Source: Candidatus Dadabacteria bacterium
GTDB taxonomy: Bacteria; Bdellovibrionota_C; UBA2361; J046
Length of the DNA: 35,119 nt
Reading direction: 5' to 3'
Assembly: GCA_003696425.1 (NCBI GenBank)
Contig: RFHI01000226.1
Location: 1 to 35,119 of the forward strand
The stretch's first letter is position 1; every line of letters starts with the position of its first letter. The notes under the pieces were generated by a model. It saw only the letters and a program-made list of their open reading frames with translations. It ran no database searches and was not told the origin of the DNA. Positions 32,275-32,520 of the stretch are shown here, piece after piece. Position numbers and translations under genes: made by a program.

Positions 32275-32347
32275 GGGCCGATAGCTCAGTCGGTAGAGCA
32301 ACTGGCTTTTAACCAGTGGGTCGCAGGTTCGAATCCTGCTCGGCTCA
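32275..32347 (+). tRNA. tRNA-Lys (anticodon UUU)
   Basis: A 73-nt cloverleaf. Acceptor stem 32275-32281 pairs with 32340-32346 (one G-U pair), discriminator A at 32347. The D-arm contains AGTCGGTAGA. The anticodon arm ACTGG/CCAGT (32301-32305 with 32313-32317) encloses loop CTTTTAA with anticodon TTT at 32308-32310. The T-arm GCAGG/CCTGC holds TTCGAAT. CCA is not encoded. Its 3' end is copied twice just downstream. Confidence 0.96.
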
Positions 32348-32393
32348 ATTTTTGAACGAAGTGAAAAAATTACAAGCCGAGCAGGATTCGAAC
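32327..32393 (+). repeat. 19-base inverted copy of the tRNA-Lys T-arm/acceptor end
   Basis: Bases 32375-32393 (AGCCGAGCAGGATTCGAAC) are the exact reverse complement of 32327-32345 within the tRNA. The copy could pair with the 3' half of the unprocessed tRNA transcript and compete with cloverleaf folding, or it could be a trace of an insertion event. The base next to each end does not continue the pairing, so the repeat is exactly 19 bases. Confidence 0.85.
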
Positions 32394-32456
32394 GCCCCGC
32401 AGGGACAAGACGGCGAATCAGATGAAGCGGAGCTTCATCATCTGCTCGGCTCAATT
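32336..32456 (+). repeat. 15-base direct repeat of the tRNA 3' end, flanking a palindromic insert
   Basis: CTGCTCGGCTCAATT occurs at 32336-32350 (tRNA end plus three following bases) and again at 32442-32456. This is the layout of attL/attR of an element integrated at a tRNA 3' end, but only 91 bases separate the copies and no integrase is visible. Between them lie the inverted copy and an 8-bp hairpin GATGAAGC-GGA-GCTTCATC (32421-32439). GCCGAGCAG at 32376-32384 also pairs with CTGCTCGGC at 32442-32450. Confidence 0.7.
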
Positions 32457-32491
32457 ATGAGTGCGGCCAGCTTCGCTGGCTGCACTCATAA
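32455..32491. repeat. 17-bp perfect hairpin with UUC loop
   Basis: Bases 32455-32471 pair with 32475-32491 throughout (one G-U pair), loop TTC. There is no U-run after it on the plus strand, so it is not a normal intrinsic terminator for the tRNA, though it may protect or end the transcript. It lies right beside the next hairpin, so the region has three palindromes in about 100 bases. Confidence 0.8.
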
Positions 32492-32520
32492 AAAGGCGAA
32501 GAACCTTTCAGTTCTTCGCC
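32490..32520 (-). terminator. Intrinsic terminator for the minus-strand gene at 32566-33156
   Basis: GGCGAAGAAC (32495-32504) and GTTCTTCGCC (32511-32520) form a perfect 10-bp stem with a 6-base loop. Read on the minus strand it is directly followed by five T (32494-32490). It stands 45 bases past the stop codon of the minus-strand gene, the expected place. Confidence 0.85.

Follow-up and report, generated by a model that had tools for sequence, protein, structure and literature searches.

The window, that is, the whole stretch of 35,119 nt that was analysed, contains a single tRNA gene, a plus-strand tRNA-Lys(ttt) that does not encode CCA. Its T-loop/acceptor half is the source of several copies that lie immediately downstream, and the features of this region are as follows.

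32274-32348, plus strand: tRNA-Lys(ttt), the sole tRNA in the window (ARAGORN; Rfam tRNA, 76.6 bits)
32348-32374, plus strand: spacer from the tRNA end to the inverted copy, with a U-rich/A-rich hairpin of its own; many other units have a spacer of similar length
32375-32393, plus strand: X', an exact 19-nt inverted copy of the tRNA-Lys T-loop/acceptor, pairing with 32327-32345
32394-32404, plus strand: P2 hairpin of the shared core, GCCCCGCAGGG, which recurs at other tRNAs and in other families by pattern search (reversed control 0)
32405-32413, plus strand: conserved linker, here ACAAGACGG; the family consensus from alignments is AMAATACTGC
32414-32419, plus strand: CGAATC, the start of the direct copy and partner of the T-loop part of X', with compensatory changes in the helix
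32421-32439, plus strand: P3 hairpin of 8 bp, conserved in structure and different in sequence at each tRNA
32442-32456, plus strand: remainder of the direct copy, 15 nt identical to 32336-32350 at the tRNA 3' end
32455-32491, no strand: 17-bp hairpin with one mismatch, similar to a hairpin at C178:18992-19019 and to one downstream of tRNA-Trp
32495-32520, minus strand: terminator-like hairpin of 10-11 bp followed by T5, serving the convergent gene 32566-33156

The inverted copy of 19 bases and the direct copy of 15 bases announced in the original prediction are both present, as are its hairpins of 8, 17 and 10 bp. When the 250 bases downstream of tRNA-Lys were shuffled 2000 times, the longest inverted match had a mean of 5.5 and a maximum of 12 nt, compared with 19 nt at the locus itself, and other 250-nt stretches of the window reached 9 nt at most. 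The tRNA together with its downstream sequence folds with a z-score of -11, and a search of Rfam 15 returned nothing above the gathering score besides the tRNA. Between the two direct copies lies a 91-nt insert that contains no gene, and no enzyme is encoded in the unit. The palindrome cluster that had been described after the tRNA holds together only in part: its 8-bp hairpin lies within the unit, whereas the 17-bp and the terminator-like hairpins need not belong, and the tRNA-derived unit is therefore confined to 32348-32456. Judging from the similar sequence on contig C178, where no tRNA is adjacent, the 17-bp hairpin is probably a separate dispersed intergenic hairpin and was rejected as part of the unit, while the hairpin at 32495-32520 looks like an ordinary minus-strand terminator outside it. 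Family f1 had no further genome among those searched in which tRNA-Lys might show an empty site.

Similar copies were sought in the genome of the window (G000, 2.98 Mb) and in three genomes from other families of its order, a sample of four families and 147 tRNA genes, using as criterion an exact inverted copy of at least 15 nt of the tRNA's own last 45 nt, located no more than 250 nt downstream. The window's own lineage is uncultured, and the named sequences closest to its YchF protein come from MAGs labelled Deltaproteobacteria (64-66% identity). An inverted copy of this kind follows 34 of the 147 tRNA genes (8/42, 9/30, 12/32 and 5/43 per genome). Upstream flanks yielded one case in 147, inverted copies of the tRNA 5' part none in 147, and swapped tRNAs one in 441; these controls come from the same genomes, whose tRNA genes thus serve as their own control. 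Among tRNAs of other bacteria none had an inverted copy (0/21 and 0/54, together 0/75), with a longest match of 8 nt in the set of 54. Most tRNA genes are without a unit, and a direct repeat of the tRNA 3' end, 12-35 nt long, is present in 33 of the catalogued units. Outside the phylum, a tRNA-Met in a Woeseiaceae MAG (L130 8393-8469) is followed by copies of its end, 12 nt in inverted and 30 nt in direct orientation, which is possibly a related arrangement.

Units are non-coding, about 60-110 nt long, and share one plan, in which the tRNA end (X) is followed by a spacer often of around 25 nt, X', the P2 hairpin, the linker and a direct copy that is often split by P3. X' covers the T-loop and part of the acceptor, P2 is often CTGCCCCGCAG, and the direct copy begins in the T-loop at GAATCC and is commonly interrupted by a P3 hairpin of free sequence, so that the whole unit folds as one stem with two side hairpins. 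Nearly every unit joins the tRNA sequence at the T-loop, whose consensus GGTTCGAATCC is common to tRNAs and tmRNA and comes close to being its own reverse complement; the units of tRNA-Phe join at the anticodon stem instead. Copies are found in tandem, truncated or without the direct copy, and many are broken. The core is common to Lys, Ser, Leu, Cys, Tyr, Arg, Asn and Met tRNAs in different families, and the arms match the host gene, as in the tRNA-Lys units of G000, G001 and G007, where the X' sequences differ and each fits its own tRNA. In the T-loop helix formed by X' and the direct copy (helix 1) we counted 15 two-sided compensatory cells, a number that none of 500 shuffles reached, and its pairing amounts to 87% versus 18-48% in slid controls. 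At positions where the tRNA and the direct copy disagree, X' sides with the tRNA 30 times, with the copy once and with neither twice, a preference that is biased because the units were picked by their match to the tRNA. At the tRNA-Lys of G001 (L060/L178), the minus-strand insert resembles a degenerate 5' half of a tRNA (GGGCGCTCTAGTTTAGTGGATCAGAAT...) with a T-arm behind it; an origin from an inverted-tRNA pseudogene, suggested by this locus, was rejected as not general.

Searching the 46 genomes of the phylum with the fixed core pattern TTCGAACN{0,8}GCCCCGCAGGG gave nine matches in seven genomes, all nine just 3' of a tRNA, and the reversed pattern gave none in the same 46 genomes. A covariance model of the core found matches in 34/46 genomes at E <= 0.05 and in 17 genomes at E < 0.001, the weaker ones including antisense tRNA genes. 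The strong matches number 75, from 20 genomes; 68 of them follow the 3' end of a same-strand tRNA or tmRNA at a distance of 17-422 nt, five lie 107 nt or less from a contig end, and the remaining two, in genus g11, stand beside tRNA-end fragments; two matches lie behind tmRNA (L284, L285). The bulk of the units sits in a few genomes, Ser tRNAs hold many of them, and unit presence is not associated with an encoded CCA (p = 0.15). No match at E <= 0.001 was obtained in 151 genomes of another phylum, a set without a positive control inside that phylum. An origin from phages or plasmids was rejected, since 50,697 phage and 72,556 plasmid records contained no match; three pattern matches in IMG/VR were likewise discarded: one is the minus-strand reading of a phage tRNA-Tyr, and the others fall within gene-dense phage DNA with no tRNA nearby. 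The sequence downstream of tRNA-Lys belongs to a family of hairpin units that occupy tRNA and tmRNA 3' ends in this phylum. The occurrence of plan and core at other tRNAs, in related families and at tmRNA argues for the earlier suggestion of a non-autonomous palindromic repeat that targets tRNA ends, and it is the opposite of a sequence that is identical in all relatives and has no copies elsewhere, the outcome that the original prediction had named as favouring a fixed local structure.

Palindromic repeats of other kinds were also observed near tRNA genes. In G000 (contig C278, L048, L021), a cluster of Ser tRNAs is followed by repeats distinct from the unit (TATCACG...GTGATATGGCG...GTAGCACGC). 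Genus g11 carries a second type of tandem hairpin repeat at tRNA 3' ends (ACTTGGCTTCGCCAAG...), without tRNA-derived arms, which lies behind tRNA-Ser at L325 (G022) and behind tRNA-Lys at L061, L066 and L072.

Core similarity is 0.497 between different tRNAs within a genome (permutation 0/300), and between genomes it is 0.462 at the same tRNA isotype and 0.424 at different isotypes. In genus g11, orthologous Ser-gct/Ser-gga loci contain zero, one or two (tandem) units, and their spacers are unrelated. Three Ser tRNAs of G000 that lack an insertion run directly into TATCACG, and at Ser-gct of the same genome the tRNA is separated from the TATCACG flank by a unit plus a 21-bp duplicate of its end. 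Compared with the paralogous empty flanks, this arrangement reads as an insertion with target duplication, which agrees with the initial interpretation of the direct repeat as att-like sites around a very small insert. Such comparisons suggest that the unit spreads among tRNA ends; the many units at Ser tRNAs also fit an old vertical inheritance with concerted correction.

tRNA 3' ends are classic landing sites of mobile DNA. As the best reading, in which we place about even confidence, we propose that the unit is a non-coding repeat that homes to tRNA and tmRNA ends at the T-loop and whose arms are rewritten from the host gene. The units seem to form a previously undescribed small-repeat family that spreads among tRNA ends, and are less probably elements that control tRNA maturation; no description of such units was found in the literature (open-licence papers). 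The core is joined at the T-loop, with the inverted copy before and the direct copy behind it, and insertion would therefore duplicate the tRNA end and leave the gene intact. We surmise that the core passes from tRNA gene to tRNA gene as a copy made at the T-loop consensus, by priming or by recombination; the new host gene would then supply the sequence for the acceptor half of each arm. The arms might be held matched or corrected by template switching inside the hairpin, a process for which a role in the formation and upkeep of perfect hairpins has been proposed (PMC8794818), and tandem copies may be the product of recombination between direct copies. Only tentatively do we speculate that such units constitute a new class of element, with recognition arms that are foreign to it and rewritten from the host tRNA, whereby one core could home to any tRNA or tmRNA 3' end, and in which the unit possibly serves also as a maturation switch.

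A purely local origin, in which template switching at the near-palindromic T-loop makes the inverted and direct copies and hairpin correction matches the arms, with no movement between genes, is in our opinion rather unlikely. It would agree with arms that follow each tRNA and with the selection-biased tendency of X' to side with the tRNA, and quasi-palindrome correction by template switching would explain perfect, co-varying arms without selection (PMC8794818). However, such correction does not account for the core, which is non-tRNA sequence and yet common to unrelated tRNAs and families, and the absence of inverted copies from the 75 tRNAs of other bacteria also speaks against it. Further support for a local origin comes from SbcD, a hairpin nuclease whose canonical form exceeds the cut-off in 3/46 genomes, with no SbcD-like match in the unit-rich family f3, while divergent SbcD-like genes in the unit-bearing G000, G001 and G007 point the other way; the rarity of SbcD may help hairpins persist, and a loss of SbcCD is at most suggestive. 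Selection for an RNA function is another explanation that we regard as unlikely. Here X' would act as a cis-antisense that pairs with the tRNA 3' half (blocking) or with the direct copy (freeing), and would control processing or form a special 3' trailer. The alternative fold anticipated from the window, in which the inverted copy pairs with the 3' half of the tRNA, is predicted in 43 of 45 cases when RNA folding is unconstrained, with a median gain of about 13.6 kcal/mol in units with a direct copy, so that in a read-through transcript the tRNA could be misfolded if it has not folded beforehand and X' is not sequestered by the direct copy. This stable pairing could equally be compatible with a selected RNA function, the hairpin is kept by compensatory changes, and units occur in the sense orientation near the 3' end of tRNA and tmRNA genes only. 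A role in the control of tRNA maturation, as initially considered, is thus possible; nevertheless, the presence of the unit at one tRNA varies between species of a genus, units may be tandem, truncated or devoid of the direct copy, most tRNAs have none, an encoded CCA is unlinked, and during transcription the tRNA would ordinarily fold first. A strong tRNA antisense beside many essential tRNA genes should affect maturation unless the folding order or the direct copy prevents this.

No recombinase or reverse transcriptase could be tied to the units, and neither integron integrase nor Y1 transposase genes correlate with unit number. Complete integron integrase genes are unusually frequent in the phylum, being present in 14/46 genomes (L349-L360 and others), and in G041 an integrase gene lies about 240 bp beyond a unit-bearing tRNA-Leu. 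Together with tandem hairpin cassettes that carry a spacer, this would be in keeping with an integron-like cassette that has an attC-like folded single-strand site, uses the tRNA end as receiving site and is moved by an IntI-type enzyme. We consider this very improbable: G000, G001, G002 and G021 contain many units but no complete IntI (the only match in G000 is Xer-like, with 44 bits at a cut-off of 265), the T-loop borders, compared by eye, are not RYYYAAC/GTTRRRY, and most IntI genes have no adjoining repeat arrays or units. A crude scan of 12 IntI loci revealed no attC array, and IntI was rejected as the mover because it does not correlate with the units. On contig C6 of G002 (3928-4176, L304), an ORF of 116 aa that matches only the N-terminal part of an integron integrase adjoins a tRNA-Gly-type unit. 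Y1_Tnp has one match in G000 (4.8e-8) and none in the unit-bearing G017 and G021, it is common for genomes of the phylum to have a single Y1_Tnp gene, and Y1 does not track units. That the units are assembly or amplification artefacts, i.e., chimeric inverted joins in metagenome assemblies, is scarcely credible, even though every genome is a draft and contig ends carry several of the units: the conserved core, the compensatory changes and the restriction to tRNA and tmRNA 3' ends in 20 genomes and several families argue against it, and other bacteria handled identically have no units.

The unit that we read as a homing repeat somewhat resembles a non-autonomous palindromic repeat with a tRNA attachment site, and it lacks what defines REPs, integron cassettes, MITEs and integrase-bearing elements. 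With REP/REPIN sequences (RAYT, Y1) it shares the character of short, non-autonomous, non-coding hairpins, and the P3 hairpin of genus g11 is REP-like, with GTAG followed by a palindrome; this GTAG/GGAG foot is seen only there, and neither the window unit nor the majority of P3 hairpins has it. REP/REPIN sequences are dispersed intergenically, whereas strong unit matches lie only at tRNA and tmRNA ends, and unlike REP/REPIN, units duplicate their target and take the sequence of their arms from the host gene. As in integrative elements that target tRNA genes (attL/attR), the insert is bordered by a directly repeated tRNA 3' end (15 nt in the window), and the tRNA remains intact. The unit differs from these elements in its insert of about 90 bp, the lack of an integrase, the inner inverted copy of the tRNA end and a core common to different tRNAs. 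The notion of a remnant of one ordinary integrated element was accordingly abandoned, as the unit has neither integrase nor coding capacity and each tRNA has its own matching inverted arm. Tandem units, a folded hairpin site and a spacer are also found in integron cassettes, but the unit has no R''/R' sites (RYYYAAC...GTTRRRY), shows no dependence on IntI and has tRNA-derived arms. MITEs and Rickettsia palindromic elements are likewise small palindromic repeats at several genomic places; in contrast to them, the unit is not located within open reading frames and has no fixed terminal inverted repeats, since its arms vary by site and only the core is common to the copies. The family lands at tRNA 3' ends as a bare hairpin, with a common core and arms matching each host tRNA, which raises the testable question of how an element acquires the sequence of its target.

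Two fused genes on the plus strand of the window are also worth recording. In the product of the gene at 25381-26754, LpxC (residues 183-448) is preceded by a fused response-regulator receiver domain (18-127), an arrangement that would bring lipid A synthesis under phospho-relay control. The gene at 28765-30021, directly 3' of an MreB-like gene (27789-28808), encodes a PP2C phosphatase fused to a cyclic-nucleotide-binding domain.
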